From NCBI RefSeq assembly GCF_000001735.4, contig NC_003070.9:19701971-19765970 (forward strand): DNA of 64,000 nucleotides. Reading direction: 5' to 3'. Below, piece after piece: positions 14,340 through 40,167 of this stretch (the first letter of the stretch is position 1; each line of letters begins with the position of its first letter). Source of the DNA: Arabidopsis thaliana (taxonomy: Eukaryota; Streptophyta; Magnoliopsida; Brassicales; Brassicaceae). The notes under the pieces were generated by a model. The model was given only the letters and a program-made list of their open reading frames with translations, made no database searches and was not told where the DNA came from. Both the position numbers and the translations under genes were made by a program.

Positions 14340-14431
14340 ATGACGTTCAATCACTTAGCTTAAGCATCCTTGTCGTTAGCCAAGCTAGAGTCACCAGTAC
14401 CCATGTCCGAGTATCTGAGCCATCTAAAAAA
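14340..14431 (+). other. Frame-shifted remnant of the PAP5 signal peptide
   Basis: The ATG at 14340 reads only seven codons to TAA. One base out of register, the frame is open into exon 1 and encodes a hydrophobic run, [16 protein letters not shown], followed by residues leading straight into MSLETFPPP. This looks like an N-terminal secretion signal separated from its ATG by a one-base loss. Confidence 0.55.
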
Positions 14432-17400
14432 ATGTCACTCGAAACATTTCCTCCTCCGGCCGGTTATAACGCTCCTGAACAAGTAATTTTCAATTTTTCT
14501 TTATAAAATCATTTTTTACTTATTATTTGTAGAATAATTGGATTGTATGCCCTAAATTTAACTAGAGATTTGAGATGTACACTATAATTTTTTAAATTTT
14601 GTGATATATCTAATTATTATTTTTAAATGACATTTTTGCTCATAATTAATTAAAAAAATTAAAAATGTATATAAAATAATTTGATTAATTAATATTTACA
14701 AATATTATTAAAAATCTAAAACACTATTATATACTCAAAAAATTATATTTTGTTTTGAGAAAATTTTAAATAATGATAAACTAAAACTAACAATTACGAA
14801 ATAAATTATTAATTACCTGAACTTGGGTTAATTTAGTAAATCTTTTGGATAATGATTCACTACGGTTATATATAATTCAAATTTATTTTATTAATCTTTT
14901 TCATTAACAAATGTTTTGAGAGACATGTATATAATTACACTATTTTGATTTTTAAATTAATTACGAATATAAACTCAATAATTAAAATTTATTTATTGTA
15001 ATATAATTATTAATTTAAACGTTATCACAAAAATATGTTTGTTTTTAAAAAAAACAAATTGACAGTAAAAAAGAATCTAGAATGTAAAAACCAATTAACC
15101 ATCGGTTGTTTTAATATAAGTTAATGTAGATAAAAATTTAGTACAAAAATAAAATATAAATCCACAGTTTAACAAATCAAATTTTCTCAACAAATCAATG
15201 TTAAATTGATTAAAGTCAATAGTTATAAAAAATCGACTATGTAAACATCAATCAACTAAAATATAAGTTAACTGTTTCAAAATATGTCGATATAAAATAA
15301 ATTAAGTCGACAAAAATTAAATATACTAGGATTGGACCCACACTAATTTAGTTTTCTGTATTTATGTAATGTGTATTTGTACGTATTTTGTTTTTAATAA
15401 CGGACGTATTTTAAAATTACCGCAATGTAATATATTTTGATGTATTTTAATTAAAAAAGTTGTGATTTTGATTTAGGACGTCTATAGTTTAAAATCCTAT
15501 AGATGATAGAAAAGTACATACTGATATTATGTAAAATGTGTATTATAGTTTCATATACTTAAAATTTAATCAAAATACAGATGTAATGTTTTATATAAAT
15601 GGACAAAGTTGTGTAGATAATGAATGTTTATATAGTTTAGTTAGCTAATGCAATTAAATTTTAATTGTATAATATTGATTCTTAGTTTTTATGTTTGACT
15701 CTTTTATATACAAAATTCCAAAATAAGATCTCACAGAATAGATGCACCTAAATGGGTTTATTTGATTATTCTTTTGAAAATAATTTAAAAGAAAAACAAT
15801 TCATTTTGAGTTAATACATTTCGGAAAGGAAAAAAAATTATCATTTATCTACTTTTAACTTTATTTTTGTTTATATATTAAAAATGTTATTAATTATTTT
15901 AATAATTAAAAAGATTAGTCAAATTTCGAAATATTTATATAGCTTTGGAATAATTAGCCATTTTGTAAAATAAATCCTGGAGTTGGAACTTACTTACAAT
16001 GGCTGCCACTCGCTTTTAATTATTGGTTCTCTTTTGGTAATAAATTGATTAACAAACAAAAATATTCCAAATATATTTTAATCTCATATATCACGCAGTT
16101 ATTTCTAAAATTTGAACCAGATTTCGAAAACTATTTAAAACAAAATATATTTGACAAACCAAAATACAATTGCAATCCCTTAAAATGAGCAAAACGCACC
16201 TAAATACATTTCTTATCAGTTCACTAAATCTTATTTCTCCTATATTTGAACTAGATTTTGATAACTATTTAAAACAAAAATTTGTTTGACAAACTAAAAT
16301 ATAATTGCAATCCCGTAAAATATTTATTTAAATTAGCGGTGTACCGCGGATTTTTTTTAACGGGACGGGTTTGGCGGAACGGGTTTGGAAGGATATTACT
16401 TAATAACAATTGTAAACTAAAAAATAGAAATATTTTATAGATAAACATAATTTGCAGACTTTTATATATACTAATTTTAAAAAGAAAAATTGTCTCCGCG
16501 GTGTACCGCGGGTTATAATCTAGTCTAATTTATAATGATTGTTCCATAATATGAAAATTTACAGAATATTTTTTAAAATAGTATATTTTAATAACTATTT
16601 ATTAATAAGATTTTAAAGATTTAGATTTGATTTGTTATTTTTGTTATCGGATTTTTTGACTGAATATGTGGGATTAAATGTTTGGGTCAAAGTTTATTGA
16701 AACTGGATCTACTTTGCACCGACCCGTTTATTTTATTTTTTTTTAACTATTATGGGTAATTTAAATAATATGGGTAATTTTAACTACCGTAATAATGCTT
16801 ATGAAAACTCTAGTTTTGTATTTCTAGTTTAATTTAAAGTTGTTGAAAGAAAGTATAGATAATTGATTATTTTCTTTTAACTACTAACTAATCCAATCTT
16901 GCTGGTATATATTGAGGTAATAGCAAATAACTATGGTATATCTTTCTTATTTTGAGCAAATCAGGTTATATATTTAAAGTATCCACATTCTAAACAAAAA
17001 TATTATGGTTAAGTTGCACATCATGATTGTGAATATTAAATTATATAACGTAATTCGATTTTGGTATTTCAGTGTTATTTTAATAGAGCAAAATTTAAAA
17101 GCCTGAATTTACTTTTATCACGTAATATATTTATGTTATTTTTAGTGAACAACAAAATAAGTAAAAGCCAAAATTTGATTAAACAAACATTTATATAATT
17201 TCTTGAAAAAGAAATAAATAACAGTACCTCTAGACAACATAAAATATTAGCAACGTACGAGAATTTGTTTATGGAACTTGGAATGTCTCAAGAGGTTTCT
17301 TGCTTGTTTGTTTTGATCATTATCAAATAGATATGAAACTATTGTCTCGATGATCGTTCACGGTTTTGTTGTTAGACGATTGAGTCAAGACATACGCAAC

Positions 17401-20400
17401 ACATCCCTATATACAAAAATATTTAAAATATCATCATATTATAGGTTTCAGATATAATAGTATTATAATAATACACAAGCCAATGCTTTAGCATTAGATC
17501 GACAAAAAAAAAACTAAAACGTTTGTTGTTGGTGATAAAAGAGTAACTTGAGAATCGTAGAATTTCAATCGTTAGATTTATTTTAAACCAAAGAATTTAT
17601 TATTTTCTAAATTATGGGAAATATAAATGCACAGATTTAATGGAATTATTAATAAATGTAAAATATTCTATAGAATAACCCATAACTATGGTAGCATATA
17701 AATCGGTTACAATATTGTTTTTTGTTACCACAAAAATTGGAATTTAATTGTTTTTATCGTTTTGGAAAAGCTACCATAAACTTCGGATAATATATTGGTT
17801 GCCATAAACATTTGGTTTTTACTTTTTCCTAGATAATATCAATTTGTTAAACAAAAAATAACTAAGTTACCTTATAAATCGGATTTGTTATGGTCAATAC
17901 TGTTTGGGTACTTAAAATCGAAAATGAAATTAAATTATCCGATTGAAATTATTCGGGTCAATTTATTTTTAATTTTGATTTTAATGACTCATTTCCGTTT
18001 TGTACTTCTCTTTTAATAATATAGAGATATTGACAGTTCAAAAAATTGACCTTATTAATAAGTCAACATATAATAAATTAAATCTACCATGAATAAACAT
18101 GTCAACAACAAAAAATTATAAATCATTCAACAAAATAAATAAGTCAATAGTTCAACAAATCGATTATATTATAAATCAACTAGTCAAAACATAAATCGCC
18201 TGTTTTAAAATGAGTTGACTAAAATGAAAAAGTCAACAGTACTGAAAAATAAATCGATAATTTAAAAAGATCGACTTAATAATTAATATAAAACAAAATA
18301 AAATTTTACCAAAAAATAATAAGAAAAATAATTGTTTTTAATTTTAATTATATAATTTTGAATTACTTAATGTTTAGTAAATTACAAATCTTACTAATAT
18401 TATCAAGAAGAATAGTTTTATTTTTATCTGTTTAAATTGTAGATAATGAATACTCTAAAAATTGTAAATAAGTTTTTATTTTATTTTATTATTAATAAAT
18501 AATTACGAATGAAAAATAGTTAAATCGAGTGTAGTTTTCAACGATAAAATAATGCTTAAATAAAAGGTGATAATGGTAAATTTTTAATATAAAAAGAGTA
18601 ATTTTCAAATTACGATAAAAAAAATTGAGTGTAGTTTTCAAATTCATTATAGAATTTGGTAAACTTATAAAAATCTCTCATTATTTATTTCTTTCGCCAC
18701 TTGGGACTTATGAGCTTTCACTCTTGCTCTTTTCTCAGGTTCACATAACGCAAGGAGATCACAATGGTCGAGGTATGATCATCTCGTGGGTAACGTCATT
18801 AAATGAGGATGGTTCTAATGTCGTAACATATTGGATCGCAAGTAGTGATGGTAGTGATAATAAGAGTGTTATAGCGACAACTTCGTCCTATAGATATTTT
18901 GATTACACATCTGGTTATCTTCACCATGCCATCATAAAAGAGCTTGAGGTATTATAAATTTATTTGACTATCTTCCAAGTAATATATATATATATATACT
19001 TAAACAAGGTTTGTAAGTAAATTAACCTCTTTTTTTTTTTTCCTCATTCAGTATAAAACTAAATACTTTTACGAGCTTGGAACAGGTCGCTCCACTAGAC
19101 AATTCAACTTGACTCCTCCAAAAGTCGGTCCAGATGTTCCTTATACATTTGGTGTTATAGGTACGTAGTTTACAAATTCATAGTTTCAACATAGAGCTGT
19201 GCCTGGATTTTAATACTGTAAGCGAAATAAATATATAATTAATGTTAAAAAATTAGATATAAAATTAGAAAAAAAAATTCACAAAACAATTTGTCAAAAT
19301 TTTTTTTTCGAAAAATAGAATTGATTTTGTTAGTAACCAAGACATGTAGTAATTTGTGTTAGTGTTTCATTATTATCGTCGTATCATCACTCGAGTTCTA
19401 ATCTGATAAAATGTAAGTTGGGCATAATTCTACATTTAAAATAAAATCAGATGTCGTAGGCGAAAGTTTCTTATTTTATTGAAGTGGCACGGCTATGTAA
19501 CAGAGTTATGCTTTGGGTTTTTAAAGATATATGTAGAAAGTTAAATATAGTAACCATAACATATAGCCTAATTATTTTATGATTAACAATTTCAAAGATT
19601 TTGTAAATGTTATTAAAAGATATTAAAGACTCAAAGTCAATAAGTGATTTAATGTATCTTGTTCTACTACTCTCATTTATTCCAAAAATGCATACATTTC
19701 TAAACTTGTAAAAATCTATATGAACGTTATTACTTCACAAATATACTATTACTAGTATTAAGCCCGTACTATGTACGGGACAAAACTTTAGCCAAATTTA
19801 TAAATAAACCAACAATATTTAGAAATCTTTAGAAAAATTACAATCCCAAGTCTTTTGGTTACTGGATTTAATCGCAGGTCAAGTCTTACAAAGAGTTTTG
19901 GCTCAATGACAAAAGATAGGTAAGTAAAACTTACAGGTTCATTGTCACCAACCTGCTATTTGATTTTTCTTAACTTGTCAACCTGAAGAGAAAAAGAATC
20001 ATAAGAAAATTCCATCAAAACTTAGAAGAAGAATGTGGATGTGATTTTATTTGCATAAACAATATAATCATGTAAACTTATAAGAGAATCGTGACAGAAA
20101 TTTAGACACAAAGATGATTATTGATTTACAACGCTTAAGAACTAAAACTCAGGTCACCAATCTTTGAACTTTGAGACACGAAGAGTATTGTATTGTTGCA
20201 GGAAAAAGGAATCAGAAAAAATGATTTGGAAGCTTTTTGTATGAAATCATGTTGATGTTCTATTGTTGAAGAAGAGAAGCAAACTGGAGATATTGAGATC
20301 GTGGGTGTGAAGGGAGGTGAAGCAGTTGCAAGGAGTTTTTTTTTTTAATTGTAATTATTTTTCTTTCGAATAGTAAAAATTAATTAAAAATCTGAAAGTG

Positions 20401-21746
20401 TCAAAATTAGGACTTAAAACAGGTGTCAAGAGGAGAATGTTGTATTTATTGTAAAAGTGACTGTTGATTTAGTATAATTAGATGTATTAACAAATATGAC
20501 TTGTTATTGTTCTAAAATTAGAGGCGTAGACGAGTATTTCTTAATTTAGTGAATAGACTTTGAGTTCAAGTTTTAACTATGAGTTTAAATATTTTGAACC
20601 TAATTTCAGTAATCTTATTTTTTTTTTAAGGTGATCTTGGACAAACATATGCCTCTAACCAGACATTGTACAACTACATGTCGAACCCGAAAGGCCAAGC
20701 GGTGCTTTTTGCCGGAGATTTGTCTTATGCTGATGACCATCCTAACCACGACCAAAGCAAATGGGATTCATACGGCCGGTTTGTGGAACCAAGCGCCGCA
20801 TATCAGCCTTGGATTTGGGCTGCAGGGAACCACGAGATAGATTACGCCCAAAGCATAGTAAGATCCAATCTATATGTTTATCTCCTAGGTTCAGTATTAA
20901 ATCATTAAATCTGCTTACAGGGCGAGACTCAACCCTTTAAACCGTACAAGAACCGTTACCATGTTCCGTATAGAGCCTCACAGAGTACATCTCCACTTTG
21001 GTACTCAATCAAACGAGCCTCGGCTTACATCATCATACTCTCCTCTTTATGGTATGATCTAAGACTCACACTCTATTATATTTTACTCTATATTACAATG
21101 TTAATGTTTTTCTTTTGTGACACATTATCATAGACAAGTACACACCGCAAAACTCGTGGCTCCAAGATGAGTTCAAGAAAGTTAACCGATCAGAGACTCC
21201 GTGGCTGATTGTTCTGGTTCACGCTCCATGGTACAACAGCAATAATTATCACTATATGGAAGGTGAGAGCATGAGAGTTACGTTTGAGCCATGGTTCGTC
21301 GAAAACAAAGTCGATATCGTCTTTGCTGGTCATGTTCATGCCTACGAGCGATCAGAGCGAGTCTCCAACATTCAGTACAATATCACTGACGGAATGAGTA
21401 CTCCGGTGAAAGATCAAAATGCTCCGGTTTACATAACCATTGGAGATGGAGGCAACATAGAAGGAATCGCTAACATGTTAAAAAAGCTTTATATAGTGAA
21501 TTTGACTAAAGCTTTCGTTTTGTGAATTGTTTGATTAAGATTATTTATTTTTCATATAGTTTCACCGATCCCCAACCAAGTTACTCGGCGTTTAGGGAGG
21601 CGAGTTTCGGACACGCCCTTTTGGAAATAAAAAACAGGACCCATGCACATTACACTTGGCATAGAAATAAAGAAGACGAAGCTGTTATTGCAGACTCTAT
21701 TTGGTTGAAAAATAGATACTACTTGCCGGAGGAAGAGACAATTTAG
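14432..21746 (+). CDS. PAP5: Purple acid phosphatase PAP5, frame apparently damaged
   Basis: Exons: 14432-14482, 18739-18948, 19052-19160, 20631-20857, 20921-(20984 or 21051), 21134-21476, 21560-21746. All five metallophosphatase motifs are encoded: GDLG, GDLSY, GNHE, VLVH and GHVH, the Fe/Mn-Zn ligands of purple acid phosphatases, which hydrolyse phosphomonoesters and are usually secreted. Exon 5, if spliced at the family-conserved donor (21052), shifts frame and stops at once (TTA TG|A) after 242 residues. The frame is kept only with a donor at 20985, giving 396 residues but losing about 22 residues of the core ([11 protein letters not shown] and flanks). The N-terminal signal is also out of frame. 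Introns 1 (4,256 bp) and 3 (1,470 bp) contain Helitrons. Probably AT1G52940; a role in basal resistance to Pseudomonas has been reported for PAP5. Confidence 0.85.
15934..16523 (+). mobile_element. Non-autonomous Helitron in PAP5 intron 1 (590 bp)
   Basis: The 3' end shows a CCGCGG-TGTA-CCGCGG hairpin, then an 11-nt tail ending CTAG before a T. The 5' end begins at A|TTTATATAGC, where the canonical TC has become TT. Inside are two imperfect copies of an 85-bp unit (from about 16105 and 16245). A close relative lies inverted at 39571-40167. Confidence 0.8.
19752..20482 (-). mobile_element. Non-autonomous Helitron in PAP5 intron 3 (731 bp)
   Basis: Read on the minus strand it starts TCTAATTATACT after an A (20482/20483). 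It ends with a CCCGTAC-ATA-GTACGGG hairpin and CTAG before a T (19752/19751). The A|T insertion site, 5' TC, hairpin and CTAG are the full set of Helitron hallmarks. No coding content. Confidence 0.85.
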
Positions 21747-21989
21747 GGTCGAGCTTATTTGGTTTCTTTTAAGAATCTTTGTTTCTCTTTTTAATAATAA
21801 GACTAGTGGAGTGTTTTATTGTTCTTTCAACATTTATTTAACTTATTTTCCTTAAATTTATTTAAATTAACGAAATGTGAAAATCATTTCTCTTTTAATA
21901 ATTCCACTATACTTGTGGCAAGCTATAGTCCATGAGATGAGTAGTAGTGATGAACATAGAGTTAAAGAGAAAAGATAAAGAGAAGATAG

Positions 21990-22640
21990 AAAATATAGAA
22001 GAGGTATAGACAAAGGGAGAGACAAACGAACAGAAGAACCAGAGGCATTTTGCTTTCACTTTGGATTCACAAAGCCTATAACTCACATCTAAAGAGGGAT
22101 ACTAAGGAGAAATCTCTCTCTCTCTCTGTCTTCTTACTCTTCTCGCTTTTGTCACCACAACAACTAAACTAGTCATGCAATGAAAGCACATAATATGATC
22201 GGAGAGGAAGGTCACTAGAAGAAAAAGGCAACGCGGCCGGAGTTATGGATAGGATCATCAAGAAACAACGAAGAAGACAATCAACAAAACACAAATTGGG
22301 TTTGGTACAGAAGCACCAATAATAACCCAAGTACGAGCCACAACAATCAGATATGGCAGCAGCCAAGCCTCGATCTATATCCGGGTCAGATCGAGGTCTG
22401 TGATTTGACCACGTCATCGAGATCTCTAACGATAAGCTGTCAAGACTCAAGAGTATGGAAACCAAGCCAAGAAAGGGTGCACGCACGGGCGTTGTAGAAC
22501 TTGCTGCAAGAGTCACGGGCTCCACTGTCCCACCCACGTGAGGAGCACGTGGATCCCCATTGCCAAACGCCGTGAGGAGCACGTGCTGCTACAGACGCCA
22601 ACCTCCAACCCAACCGGCTACTTTAGACTCATCAGGTTTG
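21990..22640 (+). pseudogene. Degenerate unidentified gene-like segment
   Basis: Far G/C-richer than its surroundings. A CT-rich leader-like part (22110-22150) is followed by a plus-strand frame at about 22215-22500 that is open for some 90 codons ([14 protein letters not shown], then [20 protein letters not shown]). The frame is entered only past a stop, ends at a TAG, and continues in another frame. The composition looks like a transcription-factor-type coding region. I cannot name the source. Confidence 0.4.
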
Positions 22641-23063
22641 GTTTCACTAGTTTTTCATTGTTGTTGCGTAATAAATCTTTATTTGTACTAGATAATGCAT
22701 CACTTTTACTTTGATCAAATATCATTTGTAAACGGGTCAAAGAAAAAGATCTCCTAAAAACATAATAATTTCAAAATGGTTTACATCCTACTATATTATT
22801 TGGGAAGTACATTTTAAAAATAACCTTGATTTTGTAAATTAATTACATATCAATGCCATTGGAAAAATCAATTCAACCTTATTTTCTAAAAACAACAATA
22901 TCTATTTATTAAACCACGGGTAAATGGATAATCAAACAAATATTTTTCTAATGGGTATATACCATATATTTCTACGATAATCATAATAGTTTACTTTAAA
23001 CAAAAATTTTCAAAATCTTAACAAATATTTTTCTACTTTATAGACTTATAGATTTTGTAGAGA

Positions 23064-39370: not shown

Positions 39371-39570
39371 CTAGTATTGACAGAACAATGCTCTAGATTT
39401 GAGAACATACAGGGTAATGAAATAACAAATGATCTCTAGTCTCAAACCAAATGATAAAAATATTATTCAAGTTCTATTGAGTAGTAAAGGACCAAGTGAC
39501 CAAGTCTGCATGGATTTTTTTCTAAAAACTTTATATTAATTGGGGTTGGACTTCACTTATATATAAATAA

Positions 39571-40167
39571 CTAAATTTTAACCCGCGGTACACCGCGGAG
39601 ACAATTTATTTTTTTAAATTAGTATATATATAAAATTTTGCAAATTATATCTATTTATAAAATATTTTTATTTTATAGTTTACAATTGTTATTAAATAAC
39701 GTCCTTCCAAACCCGTTCCGCCAAACTCGTCCTGTAAAAAAAACCGCGGTACCCCGTTAATTTAAATTTATAATTAAAATAAATATTTTACGGGATTGCA
39801 ATTGTGTTTTAGTTTGTCAAACAAAATTTTGTTTTAAATAGTTGTCGAAATCTAGTTCAAATTTTGGAGAAATAAGATTTAGTGAATTGATAAGAAATAT
39901 ATTTAGTTGCGTTTTGCTCATTTTAAGGGATTGCAATTGTCTTTTGGGTTGTCAAACATTTTTTGTTTTAAATAGTTGCCAAAATTTTGTTCAAATTTTG
40001 GAAAAATCTGCGTGATATATGGGATTGGAATATATTTGGAATGTTTTCGTTTGTTAATCAATTTATTGCTGAAAAACCCAATAATTAAAAGCCAGTGACA
40101 GCCATCGTAAATAAGTTCCAACTCCATGATTTATTTCACAAAATGGCTGCAAAAATGTATATATAGA
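39571..40167 (-). mobile_element. Non-autonomous Helitron (597 bp), inverted copy of the PAP5-intron element
   Basis: Read on the minus strand it starts A|TCTATATATAC (40167). It ends with the CCGCGG-TGTA-CCGCGGG hairpin and TTAG (39571), one change from CTAG, before a T. The interior aligns along its whole length with 15934-16523, including the duplicated 85-bp unit. Confidence 0.82.

Follow-up and report, generated by a model that had tools for sequence, protein, structure and literature searches.

The window analysed here, a 64,000-nt stretch of the Arabidopsis thaliana genome corresponding to bases 19701971–19765970 of contig C1, contains the purple acid phosphatase gene PAP5 (At1g52940). 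The identification is based on the start residues, end residues and RT-qPCR primers published for At1g52940 in the available text of PMC3751912 and PMC4523723, all of which match the window. The coding sequence is divided among seven exon blocks (Table 1), as in PAP6 and PAP25. Together with PAP11 and PAP19, these genes constitute subgroup Ia-1 of the Arabidopsis purple acid phosphatases, a subgroup described as missing from maize, rice and soybean (PMC4436580).

Table 1. Features of the PAP5 locus, in window coordinates (a slash marks the exon–intron boundary)
Feature	Position	Strand	Basis
Family start codon followed by damaged signal-peptide code, ATG ACG TTC AAT CAC TTA GCT TAA	14340..14363	+	Alignment with chr2, chr3 and chr4 copies
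Out-of-frame second ATG ahead of the published start, which its 29-codon reading overlaps	14403..14405	+	Sequence reading
Exon 1, from published start to donor 14483	14432..14482	+	Start fits primer and residues in available text of PMC4523723
Exon 2	18739..18948	+	Homology in 3/3 close copies
Exon 3	19052..19160	+	Homology to chr4 copy and part of chr2 copy; no match in chr3 copy
Exon 4: GDLG (first codon split with exon 3), GDLSYAD 20714–20734, GNHE 20825–20836	20631..20857	+	Sequence reading
Exon 5, family donor	20921..21051	+	Reading and alignment with close copies
Exon 5 in 396-aa reading	20921..20984	+	396 aa is the length given for At1g52940.1 in available text of PMC5977197
GT of upstream (rescue) donor AGA/GTACAT	20985..20986	+	3/7 scored consensus positions; lacks G at -1 and +5
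Junction of 8-bp deletion	21047..21048 (or 21046/21047)	+	Alignment with close copies
GT of family donor ATG/GTATGA	21052..21053	+	4/7 scored consensus positions; G at -1 and +5
Exon 6, downstream of frameshift: VLVH 21211–21222, GHVH 21328–21339	21134..21476	+	Sequence reading and homology
Exon 7, ends in stop	21560..21746	+	Sequence reading; end residues match publication as far as available

A search of the genome (119.7 Mb, 7 contigs) with window bases 20640–21140 returned PAP5 itself, close copies at C3:16.94 Mb (89% identity), C2:7.88 Mb (89%) and C4:5.12 Mb (85%), and one distant partial match (69%). The close copies are referred to as the chr3, chr2 and chr4 copies. Based on gene positions we take the chr3 copy to be PAP19 and the chr2 copy to be PAP11; PAP6, PAP25, PAP12 and PAP10 are likewise names that we assume for other loci. 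No name for the chr4 copy (G000:C4:5120000-5127500) was met in the passages of the literature on Arabidopsis PAPs that were consulted.

The introns of PAP5 and the adjacent DNA have their own history of insertion and duplication. Intron 1 is >4 kb long, compared with ~2.2 kb in the chr2 copy and ~90–100 bp in the chr3 and chr4 copies. In the intron 1 region (14540–18670), the stretch 15956–16524 is matched at 86–93% in 38 of 45 match rows, obtained by scoring 40 of 493 candidates. It lies within a repeat that is also present at C5:9.61 Mb and whose ends we take to be Helitron-like, and a further copy of this repeat is present at 39562–40148 on the minus strand (87%). Intron 3 carries an insertion of ~720 bp (19762–20481) relative to the chr2 and chr4 copies; partial copies occur at other places, of which the best, at C3:4.09 Mb, covers 582 of 728 bases at 95%, and we presume that this may be a short Helitron-like element. 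Downstream of PAP5, at 21915–22727, lies a damaged copy of a DUF702 gene (presumably of the SHI zinc-finger type), which is split between a frame at 22219–22497 without a Pfam match and a frame at 22436–22714 with DUF702. A DUF702 copy with 80–86% identity also follows the chr2 copy, indicating that the duplication took along the neighboring gene.

Two frame-breaking deletions in PAP5

Exon 5 of PAP5 ends in CTC TCC TCT TTA TG/GTATGA, whereas the chr2, chr3 and chr4 copies read CTC TCC (or TCT) TCT TAC TCA RCT TAT G/GTA at the same place. The bases absent from PAP5 amount to 8 bp, either TACTCAGC or ACTCAGCT, with a placement that is ambiguous by 1 bp. All three close copies carry the 8 extra bases (TCTTACTCARCTTATG), and the full exon end is also found in both outgroups, PAP6 and PAP25. 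A loss of 8 bp relative to the family had been suspected in the first-pass annotation, which named relatives with the same exon end as the observation that would speak against it; none of the five relatives examined, all from the same genome, shares that end. Chance or misalignment is untenable given this agreement, and the deletion is confirmed as real and as private to PAP5 among the six genes compared. Joining exon 5 to exon 6 at 21134 by way of the family donor creates the sequence TTA TGA, and our reading of the exons bears out the earlier statement that this product stops after 242 residues (counted from ATG 14432) and lacks the VxxH and GHxH motifs.

The signal-peptide exon contains a second frame-breaking deletion, one that is absent from the earlier sequence-only account. 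The family start codon is present at 14340, but 25 bp of signal-peptide code are missing between positions 14359 and 14360, and translation from this ATG gives only the seven residues MTFNHLA before a stop. The same 25 bp are present in the chr2, chr3 and chr4 copies. Because the signal-peptide code is broken, a 396-aa protein must begin at an internal methionine of the family, which is where the published start at 14432 lies. The out-of-frame ATG at 14403 is relevant only if transcription begins upstream of it. PAP5 thus does not encode the N-terminal signal peptide characteristic of plant high-molecular-weight purple acid phosphatases, and the 25-bp deletion accounts for the lack of a SignalP-predicted signal peptide reported for PAP5 (PMC4523723). 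PAP5 differs from PAP6 and PAP25 of subgroup Ia-1 in its broken signal-peptide code and exon 5 frame, and its published form is 396 aa long compared with 466 aa for these two.

Small indels are a common type of error in reference sequences, and we considered whether the sequencing or assembly of this region could be at fault. We found no other support for this idea and regard it as extremely improbable. The lesions are clean and separate, one of 8 bp and one of 25 bp, and the published length and terminal residues fit the sequence when it is read around both, with the proviso that the published model may derive from the same reference.

Splicing of exon 5 and the 396-residue model

Splicing from the upstream donor at 20985 produces an open frame of exactly 396 residues, in which GDLG, GDLSYAD, GNHE, VLVH and GHVH can all be read; the earlier observation that the DNA encodes all five catalytic motifs is therefore correct. 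Because donor 20985 shares the phase of the family donor, its use would remove 25 family codons (67 nt still in place and the 8 nt lost) and with them the deletion. A loss of core sequence had been anticipated from this splice, and that part stands, but the original count of ~22 residues was too low. At1g52940.1 is listed as 396 aa with a predicted location of ‘Other’, and PAP6 and PAP25 are listed as 466 aa with ‘Secretory Pathway’ (PMC5977197, in the part available). Since the 396-aa reading has the published length, the public At1g52940 model very probably uses donor 20985. This model is threaded around both PAP5 lesions, in exon 1 and in exon 5.

The first-pass annotation regarded 20985 as the sole in-frame rescue, which proved too restrictive. 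We enumerated GT or GC donors from 20925 onward and AG acceptors in the range 20925–21476, with introns of at least 60 nt, and found 94 donor/acceptor pairs that stay in frame as far as the normal end; the 40 longest encode 362 aa and more. With the family acceptor at 21134, the only donors in frame are the GTs at 20985 (396 aa) and 20955 (386 aa), and any frame-keeping pair using this acceptor would give at least 376 aa. In none of the 94 pairs is the exon 5 end regained while exon 6 stays intact: a product of this kind would have to be longer than 396 residues, and the five pairs that exceed this length use other donors and acceptors. We also looked for a third in-frame splice that rebuilds the core, and rejected it; the longest pair (424 aa) translates intron sequence and loses the first 48 nt of exon 6.

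Donor strength was scored at seven positions of the consensus MAG/GTRAGT. By sequence, the comparison favors 21052 over 20985 (Table 1). The donors of PAP5 introns 2 and 6 also score 3/7, the same as 20985, and its weak score is therefore compatible with its use. We propose that splicing of PAP5 transcripts occurs mainly at the conserved donor 21052, which would yield a 242-residue fragment lacking the last two metal motifs; the stop of this form would precede the last exon junction, a position that can lead to mRNA decay. Donor 20985 may serve a minority of transcripts and give rise to the non-secreted product of published length, which most likely cannot fold into an active enzyme.

The expectation for the 396-aa product comes from comparison with solved structures. 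Its best relatives are sweet potato PAP (1xzw) and kidney bean PAP (1kbp/4kbp), with E about 1e-162. Two blocks of the 396-aa form align with 1xzw, and residues 231–255 are left out between them, leaving the catalytic core incomplete. PAP6, PAP25 and PAP12 have the aligned part of the skipped stretch. Core beta strands of the metallophosphoesterase fold are located in this stretch, and the 396-aa form is therefore expected to misfold. PF16656, PF00149 and PF14008 are all above the Pfam cut-off in the 396-aa reading; the metallophosphatase domain is reported across the gap, which indicates only that both halves are recognizable. Scored by the definitions of the five metal-binding motifs of purple acid phosphatases, PAP5 has the complete set in the 396-aa frame, but with the family splice sites the five are not united in one product, translation stopping after 242 residues. 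Thus, the 242-aa form would be impaired by the absence of VxxH and GHxH, and the 396-aa form by the absence of 25 core residues.

Codon constraint and the age of the lesions

If PAP5 is broken, for how long has it been so? We aligned 452 codons from PAP5, the chr2, chr3 and chr4 copies, PAP6 and PAP25, and estimated branch ω values with a purpose-written codon model. In the maximum-likelihood runs, stops in the chr3 and chr4 copies were treated as missing, and exon 3 of the chr3 copy was missing data. The tree is near-star (bootstrap 29 and 50). Because the stem to the outgroups is long (~4 changes per codon at neutral sites), the polarity of changes is taken from the close copies.

The PAP5 branch has an ω of 0.16, with a 2ΔlnL of 37.9 against ω = 1, compared with 0.12 for PAP6/PAP25, 0.26 for both the chr2 and chr3 copies and 0.69 for the chr4 copy, for which ω = 1 is not rejected (2ΔlnL 2.2; P = 0.14). 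Masking the codon that straddles the deletion lowers the PAP5 value to 0.137, and leaving out the chr4 copy or imposing two other topologies gives ω of 0.12–0.16 and 2ΔlnL of 26–39. Parsimony gives a similar picture: PAP5 has 31 silent and 16 replacement changes in 382 comparable codons, and the chr4 copy has 23 silent changes, 58 replacements and 5 stops in 367. The constraint extends downstream of the frameshift. In exons 6–7 (172 codons), the PAP5 ω is 0.066 with a profile limit near 0.18, and other trees give 0.03–0.09 (2ΔlnL 12–20 against ω = 1); only 1 replacement change accompanies 12 silent changes in 157 comparable codons, whereas the chr4 copy has 8 silent versus 20 replacement or stop changes in these exons (Fisher P = 0.00017). 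These results show purifying selection on the PAP5 branch.

Constraint is uneven along the gene, as indicated by 7 replacement and 6 silent changes in PAP5 exons 1–2 past the signal block. The signal block itself has an ω of 0.65 on 24 codons, not different from the background of 0.41. The block skipped by donor 20985 initially gave 0.61, and a single ω for all regions was rejected (2ΔlnL 12.4, 3 df), but the unmasked value is partly an alignment artefact caused by the codon straddling the deletion. After masking of PAP5 exon-5 codons 43 onward, with branch lengths and kappa fixed for the block-wise estimates, ω is 0.20 on 21 codons (2 replacement and 0 silent changes by parsimony); upstream of the skipped stretch it is 0.13. 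Both the signal and the skipped blocks are too short to reveal relaxation.

An old pseudogene that still resembles a gene would account for two disabling deletions and for the repeat-like insertions in introns 1 and 3. The chr4 copy is an unprocessed duplicate pseudogene of the same clade, with retained introns and disabling lesions, and it evolves near-neutrally with 7 in-frame stops in the aligned codons, where PAP5 has none. The codon constraint on PAP5 leads us to reject this explanation, which we consider highly unlikely: ω = 1 is excluded on the PAP5 branch under all trees (2ΔlnL 26–39), and its ratio of 16 replacement to 31 silent changes contrasts with that of the chr4 copy, 63 (including 5 stops) to 23. 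PAP5 has the frame-breaking lesions of a pseudogene, in the form of the 8-bp and 25-bp deletions, but not the neutral codon evolution, and we therefore class it as recently disabled rather than as an established pseudogene.

An upper bound on the neutral period can be placed from these profiles. The maximum neutral fraction f of the PAP5 branch is ~0.10 from exons 6–7, 0.17 from the upstream block and 0.19 from all codons, unmasked, where the upper ω is about 0.28. The branch corresponds to 0.126 changes per neutral site, which, with mutation rates of 7e-9 or 1.5e-8 per year, translates into a neutral time of at most roughly 0.8–3.4 million years; this bound assumes that the background ω is that of PAP6, PAP25 and the stem, that the tree is near-star and that the deletions ended the constraint. 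Each of the two deletions breaks the PAP5 frame relative to the three close copies. The codon statistics would fit a history in which both losses are young and the gene spent most of its branch under selection as a working protein. A special case of recent disabling is that only the reference accession carries the broken frame, as a private allele, with other accessions intact and the gene polymorphic. The bound of ~10–19% of the branch spans the within-species time scale, as this would require, but it fits a fixed loss equally well, and we regard the private allele as possible though on balance doubtful.

The damaged clade and the published functions of PAP5

All four copies in the PAP5 clade are damaged, each with its own set of lesions. 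The chr4 copy is heavily decayed. The chr3 copy has 2 in-frame stops, a TAG in exon 4 and a TAA in exon 5, and its exon 3 was not found by BLAST. In the chr2 copy, ~50 bp of exon 3 are absent, GNYE replaces GNHE and the simplest splice is out of frame; since PAP11 is listed at 441 aa (PMC5977197, in the part available), either our exon reading of this copy or its assignment as PAP11 may be wrong. PAP5, the most constrained of these dispersed copies, was probably broken last. In a study of ten vegetable species, none of nine PAP clades was made only of pseudogenes according to the available text (PMC6119273), these clades being broader than the PAP5 clade.

Available passages of the published work attribute several properties to PAP5. 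Two T-DNA lines show enhanced bacterial susceptibility, the RNA is induced by long phosphate starvation and a YFP–PAP5 fusion, made from a cDNA clone termed full length, is peroxisomal (PMC3751912, PMC4523723). A function in immunity has been put forward for PAP5 as a phosphatase working from the peroxisome (PMC4523723), and another paper cites it for a role in defence (PMC5977197). The RT-qPCR primers, which match exons 3 and 4, best fit PAP5 among six genes checked (forward, 0 mismatches versus 2 in the next best; reverse, 0 versus 1); they detect PAP5 RNA, but the exon 5–6 junction is invisible to them. Array probe sets of the _s_at type can match several genes. The expression profile of PAP5 cited in PMC3751912 uses such an element, 261341_s_at, which may report more than PAP5 given copies that are 85–89% identical. 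A term search of PMC4523723 and PMC3751912 found no phosphatase assay of the 396-aa form; the phrase ‘phosphatase activity’ has 0 occurrences in the former and one, in a reference title, in the latter. Among the papers listed for At1g52940/AtPAP5, no title or start of an abstract describes the deletions.

Can these phenotypes be reconciled with a broken gene? One answer is that selection maintains the 396-aa form as a genuine product, PAP5 having turned into an intracellular protein that is associated with peroxisomes and has a role in defence, perhaps without phosphatase activity. Both of its retained coding blocks are constrained (ω of 0.13 upstream and 0.07 downstream of the skipped stretch), donor 20985 keeps the family phase, the peroxisomal location reportedly depends on a defined stretch of residues (PMC4523723, as far as available) and phenotypes are reported from both loss and overexpression (PMC3751912, PMC4523723). 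We nevertheless think it unlikely. The two omitted blocks (24 and 21 codons) are too short for a test of relaxation, the skipped stretch is present in the solved relative 1xzw and two other ATGs, if transcribed, precede the start codon. In addition, the main location construct carries YFP at the N-terminus (PMC4523723, PMC3751912, from the text available), where it would not separate a 396-residue from a 242-residue product.

A related scenario is that the deletions remodelled PAP5 into a selected, non-secreted PAP-like protein that lacks part of the core and serves defence inside the cell by a mechanism other than normal phosphatase chemistry. The strong codon constraint keeps a functional short form in play, although we judge this scenario, too, to be improbable. 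Besides the reported susceptibility, induction and location and the low scores of other PAP5 donors, the following points count against a broken gene: (i) the constraint on exons 6–7 is equally expected from a working 396-aa protein and (ii) an origin of the YFP–PAP5 cDNA clone from RNA would mean that the plant uses donor 20985. Young breaks are favored over selection on the short protein itself, and we consider it probable that this genome carries PAP5 as a purple acid phosphatase gene that was disabled recently, with two deletions that are both young and splicing mainly at 21052.

For the family, the result is that four dispersed phosphatase copies form a clade in which all members carry lesions. 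For PAP5 itself, the supposed enzyme activity needs checking, since the published protein reads around both breaks. The first forces the protein of published length to begin at an internal methionine and the second to skip part of the core, and together they make the interpretation of the PAP5 phenotype in terms of a phosphatase doubtful.
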